Assembly (NCBI RefSeq): GCF_026239735.1
Contig: NZ_JAPIVT010000004.1
Location: forward strand, 124,001-188,000
Source of the DNA: Pedobacter sp. MC2016-05
GTDB lineage: Bacteria; Bacteroidota; Bacteroidia; Sphingobacteriales; Sphingobacteriaceae
Reading direction: 5' to 3'
DNA: 64,000 nucleotides
Shown: positions 2,868 to 64,000 of the stretch, piece after piece
Layout of the letters: each line of letters begins with the position of its first letter
How positions within the stretch are numbered: position 1 is the stretch's first letter
The notes under the pieces: generated by a model
The model's database searches: none
The model's input: the letters and a program-made list of their open reading frames with translations, nothing else
What the model was told of the DNA's origin: nothing
Made by a program: the position numbers and the translations under genes

Positions 2868-3374
2868 ATGATAGAAACCGATCGGCTTATTTTAAAACCA
2901 TTGCTTCATGATCAACTGCTAAAATATATTCGGGATGATCATTCTCTGGAAAAAGAATTCGGACTTTTACCTACCAAAAAAAATATTTCGAAATCGTTAC
3001 ATGATGCACTTCAGAAAACTATTCTGCCCATTGTTTTTGATAAAGATAAAGACTATCTCTATCACACCTTGTGGGTAGTTATCTCTAAACCAGACCAAAA
3101 AATGGTTGGCGATATTTGCTTTGTTGGTGAACCCGACGCTGATGGAGAAATTGAAATTGGTTACGGTACTTATGAAGAGTTTAGGGGCAAAGGCTTTATG
3201 ACCGAGGCAGTCGGTAGAATAACTGAATGGGCAAAAGAACAACCAAAGGTTAAATCAATTTATGCCGCTACTGAAAAAAATAATGTAGCATCATATTCCA
3301 TTCTGGAAAAAAACCATTTTGTAAATATTGGTGAAGTAGGTGATATGTTAAGTTGGAAAATCGAATTAAAATGA
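2868..3374 (+). CDS. GNAT N-acetyltransferase (RimJ/RimL-like)
   Basis: The 168-residue product opens with IETDRLILKPL, the usual start of the Acetyltransf_3 (RimJ/RimL-like) branch of GNAT enzymes. The acetyl-CoA pyrophosphate-binding motif is visible as FRGKGFMTEAV (about residues 104-114), and the C-terminal N-x-x-S-x-x-x-L-E-K-x-x-F motif (NNVASYSILEKNHF) closes the fold. These enzymes transfer acetyl from acetyl-CoA to an amine; the substrate cannot be told from the sequence. It ends 3 bases from the convergent GNAT gene at 3378. Confidence 0.85.
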   Translation: MIETDRLILKPLLHDQLLKYIRDDHSLEKEFGLLPTKKNISKSLHDALQKTILPIVFDKDKDYLYHTLWVVISKPDQKMVGDICFVGEPDADGEIEIGYGTYEEFRGKGFMTEAVGRITEWAKEQPKVKSIYAATEKNNVASYSILEKNHFVNIGEVGDMLSWKIELK

Positions 3375-3377
3375 TTG

Positions 3378-3887
3378 TTAAACAGCAATCTCAAAAAGGC
3401 TCAAACTGATACCCTCATAGTGTTTCGGCAAACCTTCCGATTTTTGGAGTGTAACTACGCCAACATAATCAAAACCGCAGCCAGTATAATAGGCTAAAAG
3501 TTTTTCATTATCAGCCCAAGTATCCATACGAATATATTTTATATCGTTTTTGGCTGCATAACCTTTAGCCCATTTGATAATTTCTTTTACGAATGAATAA
3601 CCGCGATAAGCAGGGTGCGTAACAATACGATGAATGTAAACTGAATCATGGTCGCGATCGCCCCAAATGAGTTGATCATTAAAGGTTACTGCAAATACAC
3701 AAGCTACTTCGCCATCAACTAAAATTTTATATTGGCGGTTATCTGTAATTTCCGTTTCTACTAATTCCCTGCTAAAGCCTTGCCAGTGTTTGTTAAATAC
3801 TTTCTTTTGATGAGCAATGGCCATATCGTAGAAATTAAAAATGGTATCTATATCTAAAAGCTGGCTGTTTTTTACCTCGATTTGCAT
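3378..3887 (-). CDS. GNAT N-acetyltransferase
   Basis: The 169-residue protein is a second GNAT enzyme, read toward the first one. The core motif is IHRIVTHPAYRGYSFVKEII (about residues 86-105), an R-G-Y-S variant of the usual R/Q-x-x-G-x-G/A acetyl-CoA loop, followed by YIRMDTWADNEKLLAYYTGCGF, which holds the typical N...L..YY...GF ending. The variant loop suggests a divergent member but the fold pattern is clear. The substrate is unknown. A terminator at 3972-4014 isolates it from der upstream. Confidence 0.8.
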   Translation of the reverse strand: MQIEVKNSQLLDIDTIFNFYDMAIAHQKKVFNKHWQGFSRELVETEITDNRQYKILVDGEVACVFAVTFNDQLIWGDRDHDSVYIHRIVTHPAYRGYSFVKEIIKWAKGYAAKNDIKYIRMDTWADNEKLLAYYTGCGFDYVGVVTLQKSEGLPKHYEGISLSLFEIAV

Positions 3888-49197: not shown

Positions 49198-49845
49198 ATG
49201 AATTTCACATCACCGATAGTTATAGCCGAAATAATGTGCCTTATAGGTGCAATTATATTTCTAAGAAATAATAAAAGCATTTTCTGGAAACTAAATATTG
49301 CCTATCTTCTTTTGGCGTTATTAACGGAGGCTGCAGGAAGTTATATGTCCTCTAAAAGAGAAAACAATCTTTGGTTATTTAACTCCTTTGTATTTTTCGA
49401 AATTAGCTTCATTTTTATTGGCATCTGGCATTGCCTGAAAAATTATTTAATCCCTAAGCCCATTATATATGTAGGTTTAGGGATCGTTTATTCGATTTAT
49501 TTTGGCTTTATTGCTAAAGATTCGATTATGGTTTTTAACTCGACTGCTGTAACAGTAATGTCGGTGGTTTTTAGCCTCTACTGTCTTTATTATTATTATC
49601 TCTTGTTAAATGACGAAAAATTTATTGAAATCAAATATCATCCAGAATTTTGGTGGATAACGGGTGTATTGTTTTATTATTTTGGTGGAACGGTTTGTAA
49701 CTTGTTAAGTGATGTATTTGATGTTCGTTTCGGCAAAAGTTTCACCCTCAGGTACGCTATTACCATAGCATTGAATTTTATTTTATATAGCGTTTGGACC
49801 TATTCTTACTTATGCAGAGCGAAACAACAAAAATTGCAATCTTAG
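49198..49845 (+). CDS. multi-pass membrane protein
   Basis: The 215-residue protein shows about seven hydrophobic segments (residues 5-22, 30-50, 58-80, 85-105, 115-140, 152-175, 185-205). No family was recognised. Its position in front of a kinase with a single TM anchor suggests a sensing or signal-modulating partner. Its last 34 bases overlap the kinase start. Confidence 0.75.
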   Translation: MNFTSPIVIAEIMCLIGAIIFLRNNKSIFWKLNIAYLLLALLTEAAGSYMSSKRENNLWLFNSFVFFEISFIFIGIWHCLKNYLIPKPIIYVGLGIVYSIYFGFIAKDSIMVFNSTAVTVMSVVFSLYCLYYYYLLLNDEKFIEIKYHPEFWWITGVLFYYFGGTVCNLLSDVFDVRFGKSFTLRYAITIALNFILYSVWTYSYLCRAKQQKLQS

Positions 49846-50603
49846 TTGTTATTGCAACTTTGATTTTCTTACTAATGCCTGTTTTTTTGATTATGTACAT
49901 CCGTTCGTATAACCGGCATAAAAAAAACCACATATTAGAGAAACAACACATGCAACAGCAGTTTGAGGCAGAGATGCTTCAAGCCAGAGTTGAAGTGCAA
50001 GATAATACCATGCAAGCTATTGCAACAGAACTGCATGATAATGTAGGGCAACTTTTAAGTTTAACTACTTTAACATTAAATTCAATTAATCTTGATCATA
50101 GCGACAAAGCCACTGTCAAAATAGAAAATTCCTTATCGCTGGTCAACAAATCTATCAAAGAGTTAAGAGAACTTGCCAAACTTTTACATGGTGAGCAAAT
50201 AGTAGAAAATGGATTAGGCAATGCGTTACAACAAGAAATTAACTGGCTGGAAAAAACAGGTAGTTATGAATTGGAGGTTACCAATCAACTTCATAATCTG
50301 CAGGAAAACTCCCCAGATAAAGACTTAATTATTTTACGCATGCTACAGGAAATCATCAACAACATCATCAAACATGCAAACGCTACTTCAATCAGTTTTA
50401 ATGCATACTACGAGGATAAAAAATTATATTTAAATGTTGAAGAAAATGGAGTAGGTTTCAATTACGAAAAGGCTAAAGCAAATAAAGCAGGTTTGGGATT
50501 AAGTTCCATTTCAAAGCGCATTGAAATGATAAATGGTAAAATGGCTTTAAATTCAACTCCAAATAAAGGCACTAACATCCTAATCGAAATCCCATATCCC
50601 TAA
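49812..50603 (+). CDS. NarL-type sensor histidine kinase
   Basis: The 263-residue protein (ATG at 49812, overlapping the gene before it) has one TM helix (about residues 8-30), a coiled-coil linker, a HisKA_3 dimerization helix with H in ATELHDNVGQLLSLTTL, and an ATPase domain (EIINNIIKHANATSIS and GLGLSSISKRIEMING). No periplasmic sensor is present, so the signal may come from the membrane protein encoded just before. It pairs with the response regulator 4 bases downstream. Confidence 0.93.
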   Translation: MQSETTKIAILVVIATLIFLLMPVFLIMYIRSYNRHKKNHILEKQHMQQQFEAEMLQARVEVQDNTMQAIATELHDNVGQLLSLTTLTLNSINLDHSDKATVKIENSLSLVNKSIKELRELAKLLHGEQIVENGLGNALQQEINWLEKTGSYELEVTNQLHNLQENSPDKDLIILRMLQEIINNIIKHANATSISFNAYYEDKKLYLNVEENGVGFNYEKAKANKAGLGLSSISKRIEMINGKMALNSTPNKGTNILIEIPYP

Positions 50604-50606
50604 ATC

Positions 50607-51248
50607 ATGTTACCTCAACCCATATCTATTGCCATAGTTGATGATCATACCTTATTCCGTTCTGGATTAGCCAGCTTATTAGACGAATTTGACGAAATTA
50701 AGGTGTTATTTGAAGGCAAAAATGGCCAGGATTTACAACATAAGATTGTGAATCATCCAGATGTTCAACTCTTATTAATGGATATTAATATGCCAGTAAT
50801 GGATGGATTTGCAGCTACTAAGTGGGTAAAGGAGCACCATACCAATGTAAATGTATTAGCATTGAGCATGCTTGAAGATGAAAAAGCCATTATTGGAATG
50901 CTAAGGGCTGGCGCAAGCGGATATATGCTTAAAGAGTCTACACCTAACGACCTTCTCTTGGCCATTAAGGCTGTTGTTGAAAAAGGGTTTTACATAAACG
51001 ACCTGGTATCGGGCAGGCTTTTGATTGCTTTAAAAAATGGCGATTCAGGCCCAATCTTCAGTACAAGGGAACTTGCATTTTTGCAGCATTGCAGTACCGA
51101 ACATACCTACAAAGAAATTGCCGACATGATGAATGTAAGCCCGCGAACTGTTGACAATTACAGGGAATCATTATTTGCCAAACTCAATATCCGATCTCGT
51201 ACAGGATTGGTGGTTTATGCGATCAAGAATAACCTAATTACCATATAA
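50607..51248 (+). CDS. NarL/LuxR-family response regulator
   Basis: The 213-residue protein has a receiver domain with D59 (LLLMDINMPVMDG) and a GerE helix-turn-helix (STEHTYKEIADMMNVSPRTVDNYRESLFAKL). It is the partner of the kinase encoded just before. The palindrome at 48664 in front of the operon is a candidate target. Confidence 0.95.
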   Translation: MLPQPISIAIVDDHTLFRSGLASLLDEFDEIKVLFEGKNGQDLQHKIVNHPDVQLLLMDINMPVMDGFAATKWVKEHHTNVNVLALSMLEDEKAIIGMLRAGASGYMLKESTPNDLLLAIKAVVEKGFYINDLVSGRLLIALKNGDSGPIFSTRELAFLQHCSTEHTYKEIADMMNVSPRTVDNYRESLFAKLNIRSRTGLVVYAIKNNLITI

Positions 51249-51300
51249 TCAGCACCGCTGAAAATCTTTACCTATTAAAAACTTGATAAAAAATTTGCAT

Positions 51301-51328
51301 AACTAAATAATTAGTTTTAACTTTAGTT
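51301..51328 (+). promoter_or_regulatory. probable operator of the BlaI-like regulator
   Basis: AACTAAATAATTAGTT (51301-51316) is a near palindrome, and a second half-site pair, AACTTTAGTT (51319-51328), overlaps a TAnnTTT-type -7 box. The sites lie 40-67 bases before the ATG at 51368. BlaI/MecI proteins bind such dyads over their own promoters. Confidence 0.5.
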
Positions 51329-51367
51329 AAGGCATTGCCTAAAGCTTATCTCTATTTATTAAATATT

Positions 51368-51745
51368 ATGGAAATTAAAGATCTAACCAAAGCAGAAGAA
51401 CAGCTTATGCAGGTATTGTGGCAGTTGGAAAAAGCATTTGTAAAAGATGTTATCGATGAACTTCCCTTGCCAAAACCCGCTTATAATACCGTTTCAACGA
51501 TTATCAGAATTTTAGAGACAAAAGGTTTTATTGGCCATGAGGCCTTTGGAAAAGCCCATCAGTATTTCCCGCTCATCAGCAAAGAAGAATATAAACGCCA
51601 CGCCACCGAAAAGTTACTCGGCAACTATTTCGAGAATTCAGTAGAAAGTATGTTTTCTTTCTTCGTGAAAGAAGAGAAGTTAGATTTAAGTGATGTGGAT
51701 GAAATTTTAAAAATGATTGATAAAATTAAACATAAGCCAAAATGA
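51368..51745 (+). CDS. BlaI/MecI-family repressor
   Basis: The 125-residue protein begins MEIKDLTKAEEQLMQVLWQLEKAF, the BlaI signature, with winged-helix motif KPAYNTVSTIIRILETKGFIGHE and the C-terminal dimer helix (SVESMFSFFVKEEKLDLSDVDEIL). In this family the repressor is cut by, or released through, the M56 peptidase encoded next. The two genes overlap by 4 bases (ATGA). Confidence 0.95.
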   Translation: MEIKDLTKAEEQLMQVLWQLEKAFVKDVIDELPLPKPAYNTVSTIIRILETKGFIGHEAFGKAHQYFPLISKEEYKRHATEKLLGNYFENSVESMFSFFVKEEKLDLSDVDEILKMIDKIKHKPK

Positions 51746-53718
51746 GTTTTGCCCATTACCTACTTCAGGTAAACTTATATTTAATTGTTTTTTATGGCTT
51801 TTATAAATTACTTTTAGATAAGGAAACCTACTTTTTACTCAACCGCGTTTACCTGGTAAGTGCTGGTGTATTATCATTATTTATTCCATTTATCCGACTG
51901 GAATGGCTCACTGAGCAAAAGGCTGCACAGCAGGTTTATACATCGGTAAATTGGGAAGCCGTATTAGAAAAAGCTACTATTGTAAGCGATAATAGCCATG
52001 GCCTTAATTGGGGTAATGCGTTTGTGTATATCTATTTTGCAGGCATAATCTTCTGCTTAGGCAAGCTTGCTTACAATTTACTCTCAGTACATAAGCTGAT
52101 AAAAAATGCGAAATCGGGTTCTGCGTTTTCTTTTTTTAGTAAAAAAGTCGTCGATCAGGATTTGCCACTAATGGCGGTGATTGATGTACATGAAGAAGCC
52201 CACATTAAACAATGCCATACTGCAGATATTTTGTTTTTTGAGATTATTGGAGTTTTTACCTGGATAAATCCAATCATTTACTTCTACAAAAAATCCATTA
52301 AAAATATTCACGAATTTTTAGCAGATGAGCATGCTGCAGCATTTCAAGGTGACAAAGCTGAATATGCTATGCTCATCTTGAGTCAGTCGTTTGGAATTTC
52401 CCCTAATCGCCTAACCAATGGTTTCTTTGATAAATCACTCATCAAGAAACGGATCTTTATGTTGCAAAAAGAAAGATCAAAGAAAATAGCCATTTTGAAG
52501 TATGGCTTCTTTATTCCGCTTTTTGCAGTTCTCATTATTTTCTCCTCAGCAACGGTAAGAAAAAATGAAAAGCTGATTTCGATTACCAACCAAATACCAC
52601 TGGATAAACCTATTGAAATGGTTCAGGAAATTATTATTCCTGAGCCAGGATTTGCTCCAGAAAAGTCATCTACCACTGAGATCATTCCTACAGCAGAAAA
52701 AGTAGCCGGAAATTGGAACAACTTTTATGCTTTCATGGCCAGATCTATAAAATATCCATCCGAAGCTCAGAAAAACAACCTTCAGGGCAATACTCAGATA
52801 AAATTCACCCTTCAAAACAATAAGGTAACAAACGTAAGCAGTGTTGTGAATTTGGGCGACGGCTGCGATGAGGAAGTGAGGAAAGCCATATTGTCGTACA
52901 GAAAATTTGAAAATCTGCCTAATGGTAAATACACGTTGAAAGTAGGTTTCACACTTTCCGGAAATAAGGCCGCCCCGCTTAAAAATAAGGAGACGATTAA
53001 ACTGGCTACTTACCAAAAACTTTCTGATATTAATATTATTGGTTATTCTTCGCCTGTAGAAAGTGGCAGTGAGGAGGATAAGTTAGACAAAGTTTTTGAC
53101 TTCGTTTCAATAGAGAAACAGCCGGAGTTTCCCGGAGGGATATCTAAGTTTTATGAGTATTTAAGCAAGACCATAAAGTATCCAAAACCAGCACAAGAAA
53201 ATAATGTGCAGGGAAAAGTTTTTCTATCCTTCATCGTCGAGAAAGATGGTTCGCTTAGCGATGCTTTGATAACCCGCGGCCTGGGCAGTGGGTTAGATGA
53301 GGAAGCCTTAAGGGTAATAAAAAGTTCGCCAAGATGGAATCCTGGGATAACGGATGGTAAATCCGTTAGGGTAAAATACAACATCAACGTGAATTTCACA
53401 CTAAATGTTGATGATGAGGTGAAGAAAGCAACTCGGATTAAAGGCCTTTCTACGAGCGACGTTTTTAACAACTCGAAATTTGATGGTGTTGTTGTGCTAA
53501 ATGGAAAGGTAAGCCAAAGTGGCTTCGATTTTACAAAAATTGATAGTCGCGATATTCAATCAGTTTCGGTACTAAAAGATGCTGCAGCAACAAGTTTATA
53601 CGGAGATAAGGGAAAAAACGGCGTGCTCATCATTACCACAAAAAATAACGATTTTAGAAAAGCAAGTGACACGGAACTTAGGTTAGATACCAACACACCG
53701 ATTCTCAAAATAAGATAA
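51742..53718 (+). CDS. M56 (BlaR1-like) membrane peptidase fused to TonB C-terminal domains and a plug motif
   Basis: The 658-residue protein has N-terminal TM helices (about 5-25, 33-52, 93-115), the zinc site HEEAH (150-154), a further TM helix (252-271), then an extracytoplasmic part. This holds two TonB C-terminal domains: a degenerate one (about 315-405, IKYPSEAQKNNLQGNTQIKF) and a good one (450-555, YPKPAQENNVQGKVFLSFIV). The last 90 residues end in the SusC plug motif SVSVLKDAAATSLYGDKG. M56 plus BlaI is a known sensor pair; the fusion to a TonB-type domain and a plug motif is unusual. Confidence 0.9.
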   Translation: MSFAHYLLQVNLYLIVFYGFYKLLLDKETYFLLNRVYLVSAGVLSLFIPFIRLEWLTEQKAAQQVYTSVNWEAVLEKATIVSDNSHGLNWGNAFVYIYFAGIIFCLGKLAYNLLSVHKLIKNAKSGSAFSFFSKKVVDQDLPLMAVIDVHEEAHIKQCHTADILFFEIIGVFTWINPIIYFYKKSIKNIHEFLADEHAAAFQGDKAEYAMLILSQSFGISPNRLTNGFFDKSLIKKRIFMLQKERSKKIAILKYGFFIPLFAVLIIFSSATVRKNEKLISITNQIPLDKPIEMVQEIIIPEPGFAPEKSSTTEIIPTAEKVAGNWNNFYAFMARSIKYPSEAQKNNLQGNTQIKFTLQNNKVTNVSSVVNLGDGCDEEVRKAILSYRKFENLPNGKYTLKVGFTLSGNKAAPLKNKETIKLATYQKLSDINIIGYSSPVESGSEEDKLDKVFDFVSIEKQPEFPGGISKFYEYLSKTIKYPKPAQENNVQGKVFLSFIVEKDGSLSDALITRGLGSGLDEEALRVIKSSPRWNPGITDGKSVRVKYNINVNFTLNVDDEVKKATRIKGLSTSDVFNNSKFDGVVVLNGKVSQSGFDFTKIDSRDIQSVSVLKDAAATSLYGDKGKNGVLIITTKNNDFRKASDTELRLDTNTPILKIR

Positions 53719-53733
53719 TTAAGATCAACGAAT

Positions 53734-54393
53734 ATGAAAAGAATATTAACGATTGTTATAGCGCTAGGTATGGCCTATAGCGTAAAAGCACAAACGAAAC
53801 CAGATAGTACCAAAACGCCGAGCATTACTTTACGCGGTACAGCTACATCTGTTACGGAGCCCCTTATCGTAATTGACGGAAATAAGCAATATCAGCGAGG
53901 AACGGCGTCTATGGCTGGTGTGGATCCAAATAATATCGAATCAATAAACATTTTGAAAGATGCTGCATCAACCACTAAATATGGCCCTGACGGATTTGCG
54001 GGTGTTATTGAAATCAAAACTAAAAACGGTTTAGCAGGAATTTATAATAAGAACATAGATTCAAATAGTATCGGACTTAGTGGAAAAATTACCGGACTTA
54101 GTGTTCGCCCAAATGCTACAGGTGTGATCAGGAATTACAAGAGAAAAGATTCTGACCAAAAAGTGATTATCAGAAATCTCCTGCAAAAAGATTCCGATCC
54201 AAAAGCTAATCCAATTTATGTAGTTGATGGCAAGCAAGTAGATAATATAGAAACGCTTGATCCAAATACAATTGAATCAATTAATGTGCTGAAAGATGCT
54301 GCTGGAAAATCACAGTATGGTGAATCAGGCGCAAATGGAGTAGTTATTATTACTACAAAAGTTCCTAAAAAAGAATATCAAAAGAAAAACTAA
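53734..54393 (+). CDS. secreted protein with two SusC-like plug motifs
   Basis: The 219-residue protein has a signal peptide (about 1-19, ending VKAQ). It has two copies of the plug core: SINILKDAASTTKYGPDGF (about 71-90) and SINVLKDAAGKSQYGESGA (about 184-202), each followed by G-V-I/V-x-I-x-T-K. There is no beta-barrel, so it is not a transporter. It resembles a free plug domain. It lies 15 bases after the M56 fusion gene. Confidence 0.8.
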   Translation: MKRILTIVIALGMAYSVKAQTKPDSTKTPSITLRGTATSVTEPLIVIDGNKQYQRGTASMAGVDPNNIESINILKDAASTTKYGPDGFAGVIEIKTKNGLAGIYNKNIDSNSIGLSGKITGLSVRPNATGVIRNYKRKDSDQKVIIRNLLQKDSDPKANPIYVVDGKQVDNIETLDPNTIESINVLKDAAGKSQYGESGANGVVIITTKVPKKEYQKKN

Positions 54394-54419
54394 ATAAAAA
54401 ACTTTAATACTATTTAACC

Positions 54420-55139
54420 ATGAGAAAGCTAATGATTTTAGCCCTAACGGGCATTGCCATGCTTACCAATTCGGTAAAAGCACAAAAAATTTACGATTTT
54501 GTATCAGTGGAAAAGCAGCCAGCTTACCCTGGTGGAATTGTTAAATTCTATCAGTACATGAAAAACGAAATTAAATATCCTGAAGTAGCGAAGAATAATA
54601 AAATACAGGGAAAGGTATTTTTAAGCTTTATAGTGGAAAAAAATGGCAAGCTAACTGATGTGATTGTTGTTAGAAGCCTATCAAAAGAAACGGATGCAGA
54701 GGCCGTAAGAGTAATTAAAAATTCTCCGAACTGGAATCCTGGTGTACTTGACGGAATGCCAGTAAGAGTGAAGTATAACATTGCTGTTAACTTCAATTTT
54801 TCTGGAGATAAAACGAGTCAAAAAACAAGCAATAAACCAGGGTTAACACCTGAATTTCCTGGGGGAACAGAGAAGCTTTATAGCTATTTGGCTAAAAACA
54901 TTAAATACCCAAAAGAAGCACAGAAAAATAATGTCCAAGGAAAAGTTTTTCTTGAATTTAATGTAGAAAAAAATGGAACCTTAACAGATATTGTTGTAAC
55001 CAGAGGGCTATCCAAAGAAACTGATGCAGAAGCTATGAGGGTAATGAGAGCTGCACCAAGGTGGAATCCGGCAATTGGCACAGATGGCCATCCTGTAAAA
55101 ACTAAATACCGCATGACGGTGAATTTCACGTTGTCTTAA
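54420..55139 (+). CDS. secreted protein with two TonB C-terminal domains, no membrane anchor
   Basis: The 239-residue protein has a cleavable signal peptide (about 1-20, ending VKAQ) rather than the usual N-terminal TM anchor of TonB. Two TonB C-terminal domains follow (about 25-125 and 135-239), each with YP..A..NN.(I/V)QGKVFL.F.VEK.G.L.D and WNP. Such a soluble tandem cannot transmit energy from ExbBD in the standard way. It lies 26 bases after the plug-motif gene. Confidence 0.85.
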   Translation: MRKLMILALTGIAMLTNSVKAQKIYDFVSVEKQPAYPGGIVKFYQYMKNEIKYPEVAKNNKIQGKVFLSFIVEKNGKLTDVIVVRSLSKETDAEAVRVIKNSPNWNPGVLDGMPVRVKYNIAVNFNFSGDKTSQKTSNKPGLTPEFPGGTEKLYSYLAKNIKYPKEAQKNNVQGKVFLEFNVEKNGTLTDIVVTRGLSKETDAEAMRVMRAAPRWNPAIGTDGHPVKTKYRMTVNFTLS

Positions 55140-55200
55140 CATTTTGTAACGCCGTCAACATCGCAAAGTCTTAATTTCAACATAAGATTTTGCGATTTCA

Positions 55201-55230
55201 TTGTACAATTCAAAGCGCATTGTATATTTG
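55201..55230 (+). promoter_or_regulatory. promoter of the last TonB-domain gene
   Basis: TTG (55201-55203) and TATATTTG (55223-55230) are 19 bases apart, fitting the Bacteroidota consensus. The ATG of the next gene is at 55234, so transcripts are nearly leaderless. Confidence 0.6.
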
Positions 55231-55233
55231 AGA

Positions 55234-55659
55234 ATGATAAGTCAGCTCTTTAAATTTAGTATTTTGTCAATAGCGCTACTGTTTGCCTTAGAAAGTAAGA
55301 TCAAGGCACAAAAAGTGATGATTCCGTTAGACTCGATCAAAAATTTCGATTTTTATGCTATAGAAAAGCCACCAGAATACCCCGGAGGATTACAAAAGTT
55401 CTATCAATATTTAGGCAGAAATACTAAATACCCAAAGCAAGCTTGGAAAGATAGAATAGGTGGAGCTGTAACGCTATCATTTGTTGTTGAGAGAAGTGGA
55501 GATTTAACGGAAGTAATGGTAGTTAGCGGCGTGAGGAAAGATATTGACGATGAAGCGATAAGAGTGGTAAGCAAATCGCCAAAATGGAATCCAGGAATAC
55601 AAGATGGTAAACCAGTTAGGGTGAAATACAATATCAAGGTTAACTTTTCGCCCATTTAA
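55234..55659 (+). CDS. secreted single TonB C-terminal-domain protein
   Basis: The 141-residue protein (ATG at 55234, behind its own promoter) has a signal peptide (about 1-25, ending KIKAQ) and one TonB C-terminal domain (AIEKPPEYPGGLQKFYQYL and PKWNPGIQDGKPVRVKY). It resembles the repeats in the two proteins encoded just upstream and probably works with them, but a separate promoter allows independent expression. An intrinsic terminator ends the locus. Confidence 0.85.
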   Translation: MISQLFKFSILSIALLFALESKIKAQKVMIPLDSIKNFDFYAIEKPPEYPGGLQKFYQYLGRNTKYPKQAWKDRIGGAVTLSFVVERSGDLTEVMVVSGVRKDIDDEAIRVVSKSPKWNPGIQDGKPVRVKYNIKVNFSPI

Positions 55660-55676
55660 GTACTATAGTTAACCAC

Positions 55677-55706
55677 AAAACCCCAGCTAATAATAGTCGG
55701 GGTTTT
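55677..55706 (+). terminator. terminator of the M56/TonB locus
   Basis: AAAACCCC (55677-55684) pairs with GGGGTTTT (55699-55706) over 8 bases with a 14-nt loop, 18 bases past the stop codon. Confidence 0.75.
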
Positions 55707-62252: not shown

Positions 62253-62600
62253 ATGGAAACGAGAAACAACCACGCATTAATTCAGGCCTTATTAGATTGC
62301 GCTATGGCATGCGAACATTGCGGTTCTTCAAGCCTGAAGGAAGAGCAAGATATTGCAATGATGGTAGATTGTATTAAATTGAATAGAGATTGTGCAGACA
62401 TTTGTACTCAGGCAGCAAGATTGCTGCAACGCGATTCAGTTATCGGAAGACAATACCTTTTGTTATGTGAAGAAATTTGTCGTTTATGCGCAGAAGAATG
62501 TAGTAACCATGATCATGAACATTGCAGACAATGTGCGGTTGCCTGCGAAGAATGTGCCGATGCCTGTCATGCTAACCACCAACCTATTGAGCAAGATTAA
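62253..62600 (+). CDS. Cys-rich four-helix copper-binding protein (DUF326 type)
   Basis: The 115-residue protein has 15 cysteines in C-x2-4-C spacing along predicted helices (DCAMACEHC, RDCADIC, LLCEEICRLCAEEC, HCRQCAVACEECADAC). This matches the DUF326 / copper storage protein (Csp) pattern, where cysteines line the inside of a four-helix bundle and hold Cu(I). No signal peptide is present, so it is likely cytosolic. It stands alone, with no copper regulator nearby. Confidence 0.9.
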   Translation: METRNNHALIQALLDCAMACEHCGSSSLKEEQDIAMMVDCIKLNRDCADICTQAARLLQRDSVIGRQYLLLCEEICRLCAEECSNHDHEHCRQCAVACEECADACHANHQPIEQD

Positions 62601-62822: not shown

Positions 62823-64000
62823 TTAGAATTTTAGTATTCTTTTTAGATTTACTACGAATATCGCAAGTGCACCTTGCATTCTCATGCTTTCAAGGCCATA
62901 GGAATTTGCTCTTTCATATCCATGCACATTTTTCAATTCACTATTTTCCGCCTCAATTTATATCTGTGTTTTGACTTTTCTCTGAAGTAATCGCTTTGTT
63001 GGAAGATCTCCTGCTCTTTGTGCTCATCTGGTTTTATTACAACCGAGTACGTTCTGCTTTTGGCTTCTGCTTTGTAACAGCCATCCTTTAGTGGGCATAC
63101 TTTGCATTTTTCGATATCGAAATAATAGGTCATTACCTGATTGCTCTTATCTACCTTTTTGCCCTGCACCCGTTTATACATAGCCGGGTGCCCTGCAGGG
63201 CATACGAACATATCAGCGTCTTTGTTGTAATCAAACTTTTCTTCCTCTTTCCTGGTGCCATGGGTAATAGCAGGGTTCATCCTGGCAACGATCTTAATCT
63301 TATTTCCGTTCAAATCCTTAAGCTTGAGGTTGTTCTTGCCGGCATAAGCTGCATCACCTATGATGGTGTCAACCTCCATTCCGTTTGACTGTGTCTGTCC
63401 AATAATTTTGGCAACTCAGGACCATCGCCTTTCTCCCCGGAAGTAACAACAGTGGCCGTTATGATACGTTCCTCTGTCATTGCCAAATGAGTTTTGTAAC
63501 CAAAAAAAACTGCTGTCAGCTGTTTTGTGGCCAACATTGGCATCCATATCTTTGGATATTGCATAGTTCTCCCGGGTATCTTCCACTGTTTCCTTTAAGA
63601 GGTTTAGCTCTCTTTCACAGCAGGGATTTCACTTAATGCTTCATCAGACTCGATAAGTTTTTGTAACTCCTTGCAGTATTCTATTTCTTTAAGGATATCA
63701 TTTGACTCATTTTTCTCAGCCATCTGCCCCTTCAAGCCATCATCCAATAGATACACTGCCTTTCGAAGCAGTTTCGAGCGTTGCCTGAGTACTTCAATAG
63801 AGGAATATGGATTGGATCTGGAAAGTGAATGCGTCGCATCGGCAATGATGGACCTGGATTTAATAATGCCTTTTTCCAAGGCCAGGGAAACGGTTTGCCA
63901 ATTAGAAGGTTTAAAAAATCCATATCCTTAAGGCGGAGCTTTCTGAACTTGGTCAATGAGCTTGAATTGATCACATCTTCTTCTGGGGATATCTCCAGGA
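62823..64000 (-). pseudogene. decayed IS1182-type transposase, continuing beyond the window
   Basis: Reading on the minus strand from the window end, IS1182 transposase segments appear in order but in different frames: VINSSSLTKFRKLRLKDMDF, KGIIKSRSIIADATHSLSRS, SEIPAVKE, FGYKTHLAMTEERIITAT, TSGEKGDGPELPKL, EVDTIIGDAAYAGK, KCKVCPLKDGCYK and, at the end, ENSELKNVHGYERA with LKRILKF and a stop at 62823-62825. At least four frameshifts separate them (near 63900, 63603, 63510-63520, 63380 and 62965), so it cannot be active. The N-terminal part is outside the window. Confidence 0.9.

Follow-up and report, generated by a model that had tools for sequence, protein, structure and literature searches.

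A BlaI-M56 locus of Pedobacter whose protease carries a TonB look-alike: a possible sensor of TonB demand

What would a protease-repressor pair gauge if its protease carried a look-alike of the tip of TonB? This question is raised by a locus at positions 51301-55706 of a stretch of 64,000 nucleotides from Pedobacter sp. MC2016-05 (contig NZ_JAPIVT010000004.1, positions 124,001 to 188,000 of the forward strand), hereafter the window, in which a gene for a BlaI/MecI-type repressor is followed by one for an M56 membrane metallopeptidase fused to TonB C-terminal domains (CTDs; family TonB_C) and half of a transporter plug, and then by genes for three secreted proteins with the same domain types. 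The answer that we tentatively put forward as a possible one is that Bacteroidota BlaI-M56 circuits with a continually matched mimic of the TonB tip gauge exposed Ton boxes against available TonB and adjust outer-membrane gene expression, the secreted TonB and plug mimics serving as feedback. Its more general part, a regulated-proteolysis circuit of the BlaR1 type whose sensor is a TonB look-alike, comes close to being an even prospect. The protease-repressor pair itself is of the known BlaR1/BlaI kind; what differs is the sensor and the target. The parts of the locus are the following.

51294-51325, plus strand: putative operon promoter (TTTG at 51294-51297, a 20-base spacer and TAACTTTA at 51318-51325), read from the sequence and similar in relatives
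51301-51316, plus strand: likely BlaI operator AACTAAATAATTAGTT, inside the promoter spacer, predicted from sequence
51368-51745, plus strand: BlaI/MecI-type repressor P0001 (Penicillinase_R, E 3e-32)
51742-53718, plus strand: M56 membrane metallopeptidase P0002, with a membrane part followed by TonB_C, TonB_C and a half-plug
52189-52203, plus strand: HEEAH zinc motif of the M56 domain, residues 150-154, from alignment
52741-52956, plus strand: divergent TonB_C-like domain 1 of M56, residues 334-405, found with our own hidden Markov model (predicted local distance difference test scores mostly 85-91)
53167-53403, plus strand: TonB_C domain 2 of M56, residues 476-554, with its last strand at 540-552; a near-copy of the housekeeping TonB CTD
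53428-53646, plus strand: C-terminal half of a SusC-type plug in M56, approximately residues 563-635 (Pfam Plug, TIGR04057)
53734-54393, plus strand: P0003, secreted, two half-plugs without a barrel (Plug E 1e-19, two stretches)
54420-55139, plus strand: P0004, secreted, two TonB_C domains (TonB_C E 9.3e-38, two stretches)
55234-55659, plus strand: P0005, secreted, one TonB_C domain (TonB_C E 5.3e-19)
55677-55706, plus strand: terminator-like inverted repeat AAAACCCC...GGGGTTTT, 3' of the last gene, read from the sequence by eye

The strongest indication of what the sensor reads comes from the second TonB_C domain of the M56 protein, which shares 82-83% identity with the CTD of the 273-residue TonB encoded in its own genome. 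Across 29 of 30 genomes (G185 was dropped, its M56 open reading frame (ORF) being cut short), the mean identity between this domain and the TonB of the same genome was 0.754, compared with 0.582 after permutation and a maximum of 0.638 in 10,000 permutations, and the own TonB was the closest TonB in 21 of the 29. In a tree of 30 TonB and 29 M56 domains, the labels intermingle along lineages (19 changes against a shuffled mean of 19.7), at least 11 of these changes are forced by strong branches, and a grouping of the M56 domains in one clade can be rejected (p 2e-6, with the three long rows G100, G113 and G179 left out). A second TonB paralogue shows no such tracking (0.483 own versus 0.484 other, 19 of 20 genomes kept), whereas the M56 domain in those genomes gives 0.788 versus 0.630. 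The first TonB_C domain, used as a control, gave 0.300 versus 0.281, a small shift that no permutation reached and that we ascribe to relatedness. Agreement extends to seven residues of the last strand (KYNINVN in the window), which are the same in M56 and the own TonB in 14 of 29 genomes, compared with 2.2 under permutation and at most 8 in 5,000 rounds. Beyond these genomes, the closest of nine TonB CTDs belonged to the same family in all eight genomes selected from three other families, which were chosen for having M56 and TonB_C matches in one ORF or close together; in G304, the M56 domain is 54% like the compared one of two 227-residue TonB ORFs and 70% like the TonB of relatives. In the FhuA-TonB complex, the strand of the TonB CTD that pairs with the Ton box is beta3 (as given in part of PMC11658791), and we infer from the fold match and the strand order of the model that the last strand of M56 domain 2 corresponds to this Ton-box-binding strand. 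The tracking in these sequences would be explained most simply if both domains had a ligand in common, namely the Ton boxes of the transporters of each lineage, and this suggests that the cell gauges outer-membrane transport via the TonB look-alike.

The same pattern might arise neutrally, if occasional gene conversion homogenised the M56 domains and TonB with no shared ligand implied. The mixed tree labels are what repeated copying predicts, and end branches are often short for TonB and long for M56, as if TonB were the donor. However, fourfold degenerate sites are identical at 0.35 within genomes versus 0.31 between them, and even the highest value is 16 of 30 sites (G150); this is near background, and therefore recent gene conversion, which is not seen at these sites, is rejected as the reason for the tracking. 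What is left is either older copying with subsequent selection, or co-selection. Moreover, if copies had repeatedly been taken from TonB and kept in most of the genomes tested, this in itself would point to selection, and we regard neutral concerted evolution as unlikely.

Domain searches and structural models support the composition of the locus. The sequence-only reading had listed BlaI, the fused M56 protein and three secreted TonB_C or plug proteins, and had counted five TonB_C domains and three plug motifs in the four proteins; Pfam, NCBIfam and the sequence itself bear out both the list and the count, with two corrections. The plug motifs are present, but the matches cover C-terminal half-plugs only (in M56, profile positions 47-107 of 107, with 24.1 bits barely exceeding the cut-off of 23.9), and of the two TonB_C domains in M56, which together score 92.4 bits (cut-off 24.6), the first is divergent, with approximately 30% identity to TonB. 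The M56 protein also matches Peptidase_M56 (34.7 bits, cut-off 31) and the SusC signature TIGR04057 (52.0 bits, cut-off 46.2), and contains the SusC-type plug motif SVLKDAAATSLYG. Its residues H150, E151, H154 and E191 are invariant in all 38 aligned sequences, that of the window included. In the predicted model, residues 3-232 resemble Staphylococcus aureus BlaR1 (Z 14.2, 198 residues, root-mean-square deviation (rmsd) 4.1), residues 458-556 a TonB CTD (Z 10.1, 89 residues, rmsd 2.0) and residues 568-634 SusC plugs (Z 5.3, weak taken alone). The whole-protein model shows a multi-helix membrane protease domain and does not settle TonB_C in one position against the plug; with a predicted template modelling score of 0.40, it lends support neither way on that point. 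In the P0003 model, each half can be aligned to the C-terminal portion of plugs from transporters, both SusC-type and other (best Z 5.0, weak).

Another possibility is that the TonB_C part serves as a peptidoglycan-binding or spacing domain in an ordinary envelope-stress relative of BlaR1, that is, a sensor of the cell wall or of beta-lactams. TonB CTDs are known to bind peptidoglycan. In addition, the sensing of beta-lactams is the best-known role of BlaI/M56 pairs (as parts of PMC7593790 describe). However, the M56 protein has no penicillin-binding or beta-lactamase domain match in Pfam or NCBIfam, none of the genes inspected behind operator-like sites was recognised as a beta-lactamase, and peptidoglycan would poorly explain a last TonB_C strand that follows the TonB of each lineage. 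We give this explanation little credence.

The output of the circuit can be approached through the palindrome at 51301-51316, which stands at the start of the stretch covered by the sequence-only reading and was not mentioned there. It is the sole perfect operator copy in the window, in which 2 sites with at most one mismatch occur against 0.48 expected. Conservation was assessed in the best 80 of at least 536 named M56 relatives, mostly from Pedobacter with some from Mucilaginibacter and others, among which close relatives dominate. All 80 have BlaI directly 5' of M56 as well as the palindrome AACTAANNNNTTAGTT near the blaI start with at most one mismatch (77 perfect), the search having covered the range from 250 base pairs (bp) upstream of to 80 bp inside the called blaI ORF. 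BlaI is thus predicted, from sequence, to bind this palindrome. At the four other BlaI loci examined in the genome of the window, no palindrome is found at one mismatch or fewer, and two have one at two mismatches. When the operator pattern is extended by the promoter tail, that genome contains a single perfect copy, ahead of blaI, and three others that each have one mismatch.

One of these one-mismatch copies precedes the gene for a 931-residue outer-membrane barrel protein (L156; OMP_b-brl_3, 145.8 bits), which is followed by a gene for a 260-residue GLPGLI protein. The site before the barrel gene, AACTAAAATATTAGTT, is a perfect fit to the consensus of the locus BlaI. Among 38 orthologues of the barrel gene (from 40 genomes, leaving out G216, which has no close orthologue, and G229, which has a fragment), 29 have the palindrome with at most one mismatch within 150 bp upstream, 18 of them perfectly. 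These palindromes begin 37-63 bp before the ATG, and their arms are constant while the centre varies. In 10 of the 40 genomes, the barrel gene lies approximately 9-12 kb downstream of M56 on the same strand, and 7 of the 10 keep the site; in the genome of the window it lies on another contig, with the site retained. For comparison, only 13 of 886 other nearby ORFs in relatives (at least 150 residues, blaI surroundings excluded) have a site within 120 bp, and 11 of these belong to one lipoprotein family. An earlier control of 495 ORFs (at least 200 residues, 150 bp) gave 38 at one mismatch or fewer and is less clean, as it includes barrel genes, divergently oriented neighbours of blaI for which its site is counted too, and loci chosen because they have a site. 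Taken together, these sequence comparisons make a strong case for a common regulator of the blaI operon and the barrel gene. All 11 members examined (that of the window and ten orthologues) match OMP_b-brl_3, and barrel proteins of this family are often annotated as TonB-dependent receptors; none of the 11 was matched by sequence to a solved structure.

Several observations weigh against the proposed sensor of TonB demand. The M56 domains of G100, G113 and G179 are just 47-63% like their own TonB, and the tree rests on 104 columns, with many forks open. Nine of the 38 barrel-gene orthologues lack a site at one mismatch or fewer according to the script (L177, counted among them with a mis-called start, has a perfect core by eye, which would give 30 of 38), and two of the ten linked barrel genes (G221 and G224) have no site at all. 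Furthermore, the 11 barrel proteins show no Plug match up to E 1 and no match to a TonB-dependent receptor model; a plug-like stretch is seen by eye only, and the protein was therefore not accepted as a proven TonB-dependent receptor. Motif counts in the genome of the window do not exceed the control, with 4 matches versus 6 for the reversed pattern at one mismatch and 33 versus 60 at two, while 40 genomes of the genus give a modest excess (121 versus 85; 36 of the 40 have at least one match) that is weak as a count alone. A regulon based on motif counts alone was rejected on these grounds, and the analysis was confined to sites whose position upstream of a given gene is conserved. Finally, another BlaI paralogue might control the barrel-gene promoter, the two operators merely looking alike: the genome encodes six M56 proteins, and the BlaI genes at L080 and L081 have sites just two mismatches away (AACTGAAAAATAAGTT and AACTAAGTCTTTTCTT). 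The perfect fit of the barrel-gene site to the consensus of the locus BlaI and the linkage of the barrel gene to the locus in ten genomes both speak against such a paralogue, whose involvement we consider highly doubtful.

The locus L080 (G000:C34:71510-84418), which has the site AACTGAAAAATAAGTT, contains two tandem M56 paralogues without TonB_C and one BlaI; these lie approximately 95 kb away from the locus of the window on the same contig.

Operator-like sites also occur before other genes. Of 12 paralogues of the barrel gene, 3 have a site at one mismatch or fewer, beginning 74-145 bp before the start, and may on this sequence evidence belong to the regulon, as may the lipoprotein family mentioned above. 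The genes of that family, for lipoprotein-like products of 349-374 residues, lie downstream of sdh genes in L281 (14956-16080) and ten similar loci; the site begins 40-43 bp ahead of the gene start, in most cases with a single mismatch at a common position. Perfect operator cores stand 42-45 bp before the starts of genes for secreted proteins of 223-229 residues in four genomes (L169, at 1071-1760 and 3132-3806, and L170-L172), these loci having been picked for the site; two of the proteins were tested and had no Pfam or NCBIfam match. L167 and L168 have an operator-like site in the gap where a PPK2-like kinase gene and a transglycosylase-like gene diverge, and a similar site precedes the PPK2 gene of the genome of the window (L100; PPK2 by Pfam). 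The PPK2 promoter sites of L167 and L168 have two mismatches in the core and were not counted as part of the regulon.

How far the parts belong together can be judged from the 80 best relatives. M56 is fused to TonB_C in 79 of them and to a plug in 73, and 51 have genes for secreted TonB_C or plug proteins no more than 3.5 kb downstream of M56, in variable orders (Plug-Plug, TonBC-TonBC, Plug-TonBC, TonBC-Plug, TonBC-Plug-Plug and more). The sequence-only reading had taken the locus to be one conserved system, an idea that would fail if these parts never occurred together; the 51 loci uphold it. In the first set of relatives plus the window, BlaI is directly 5' of 60 of 61 M56 ORFs of all kinds, and the 61st is the second of a tandem pair. 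A search of the neighbourhood of such fusions in other Bacteroidota, which had been proposed as a check, found a BlaI ORF in the fetched stretch at all nine M56-TonB_C loci from four other families (f4, f5, f8 and f10), which were chosen for M56 and TonB_C matches in one ORF or close together. In L056, L274 and L293, the M56 ORF is cut and the TonB_C/plug remainder forms a separate ORF, either by a natural split or by a frameshift.

The remaining 29 of the 80 loci have no secreted companions within 3.5 kb (one of them at a contig end) and retain M56, the palindrome and BlaI. The core is therefore the pair of BlaI and the fused M56, with the secreted proteins as variable accessories that, missing so often, are unlikely to be required by the core circuit. 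This bears on the proposal that the M56 ectodomain reads the soluble TonB-like and plug-like proteins as its ligands or competitors. Their presence in 51 loci as shuffled combinations of the same domains is in its favour, whereas the retention of the core in the other 29 is not, and we think it quite improbable. Of the sensing circuit that had been read from the sequence, then, the idea of one system and the link to TonB, now resting on the tracking and on the barrel-gene operator, are kept, and the part concerning soluble ligands or competitors is not. A promoter of its own had also been proposed for the last gene, P0005; it is unconfirmed, as the 94-bp gap before the gene has no operator-like site at one mismatch or fewer and promoter elements in it were unscored. 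The idea that the secreted proteins arose from the M56 ectodomain was considered and rejected, because their TonB_C domains are mostly equally close or closer to the housekeeping TonB; the first domains of the L062 and L064 secreted proteins are no closer to M56 domain 1.

If the locus does act as a sensor of TonB demand, the following sequence of events may be envisaged. The TonB_C domain of M56 would dock on Ton boxes that are exposed by loaded or surplus transporters and left free by TonB, and this docking, tuned by the half-plug, would activate the M56 protease. The active protease would then cleave BlaI, and removal of the repressor would derepress both the operon and the outer-membrane barrel gene. 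By analogy with BlaR1, in which an outside signal activates the M56 protease that removes BlaI (according to parts of PMC7593790), the M56 protease here probably destroys its BlaI repressor. The direction of activation is a guess from BlaR1, which counts against the proposal. As feedback, the secreted TonB_C and half-plug proteins, being of the same domain types, might buffer Ton boxes or the sensor: the TonB_C domains could shield Ton boxes, and the half-plugs could either occupy the sensor or keep TonB at bay.

If such a TonB-mimic sensor exists, it would make the matching of transporter number to TonB supply directly testable, would assign a function to the uncharacterised M56-TonB_C fusion, and would provide a defined operator and target gene as a starting point. 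In Bacteroides, TonB-dependent transporters far outnumber TonB and ExbB-ExbD proteins (from part of PMC11658791). In Porphyromonas gingivalis, a BlaI-family gene is among those with hemin-dependent changes in expression and methylation, and an M56 gene adjoins it (from part of PMC10470040). A literature search found no description of an M56-TonB_C fusion or of regulation by TonB demand, which is weak evidence of novelty as few subscription journals were covered; PMC12578637 is, in the part available, not about such a system.

With regard to the surroundings, the blaI and M56 genes overlap by 4 bases, and P0003, P0004 and P0005 have signal-peptide-like starts (as judged by eye and from a rough hydrophobicity score). 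The promoter elements resemble the Bacteroidota -33/-7 consensus. Among the matches listed, the closest named relative of the M56 protein is from Pedobacter sp. Leaf41 (95% identity). Directly 5' of blaI, at 49794-51248, are sensor-kinase-like and response-regulator-like genes (labelled by eye); genes of equal length precede blaI in many close relatives, and other genes do so elsewhere. Near the end of the window, at 62253-62600 and 62933-63998, a Cys-rich protein of 115 residues and transposase-like pieces were noted by eye.

By domain tests, the system is neither TonB, nor a transporter, nor FecA-type signalling. It shares the TonB_C domain with TonB energy transducers, the CTDs being so close in the genome of the window, but those proteins have an N-terminal helix and a proline-rich spacer connecting to ExbB/ExbD, whereas here the domain sits on a protease; a TonB-type start, that is, a single N-terminal transmembrane helix plus a Pro-rich spacer, is absent from M56 and, by eye, from the secreted proteins. 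SusC/RagA transporters consist of a plug and a beta-barrel, whereas P0003 (219 residues) and M56 (658 residues) have half-plugs with no barrel match. The FecA-FecR and FpvA-FpvR systems likewise tie regulation to TonB-dependent transport and proteolysis (as described in parts of PMC7593790 and PMC11658791), but there the signalling domain is part of the transporter and an anti-sigma/sigma pair forms the output, while here the regulator would carry the TonB-like domain and the output would be a repressor; Pfam and NCBIfam gave no match to an anti-sigma, extracytoplasmic function sigma or transporter signalling domain in any of the five proteins of the locus. Closest in composition are the M56-TonB_C proteins of other Bacteroidota, in which the same fusion with BlaI nearby is found in nine selected genomes of the four other families. 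With BlaR1/MecR1-BlaI/MecI, the beta-lactam sensing systems of staphylococci, the locus has in common the repressor family, the M56 fold, the adjacent genes, the HExxH zinc site and a likely operator in its own promoter, but there the sensor is a penicillin-binding domain and the target a beta-lactamase, whereas here the sensor domain is TonB_C with a half-plug and the predicted target an outer-membrane barrel protein.

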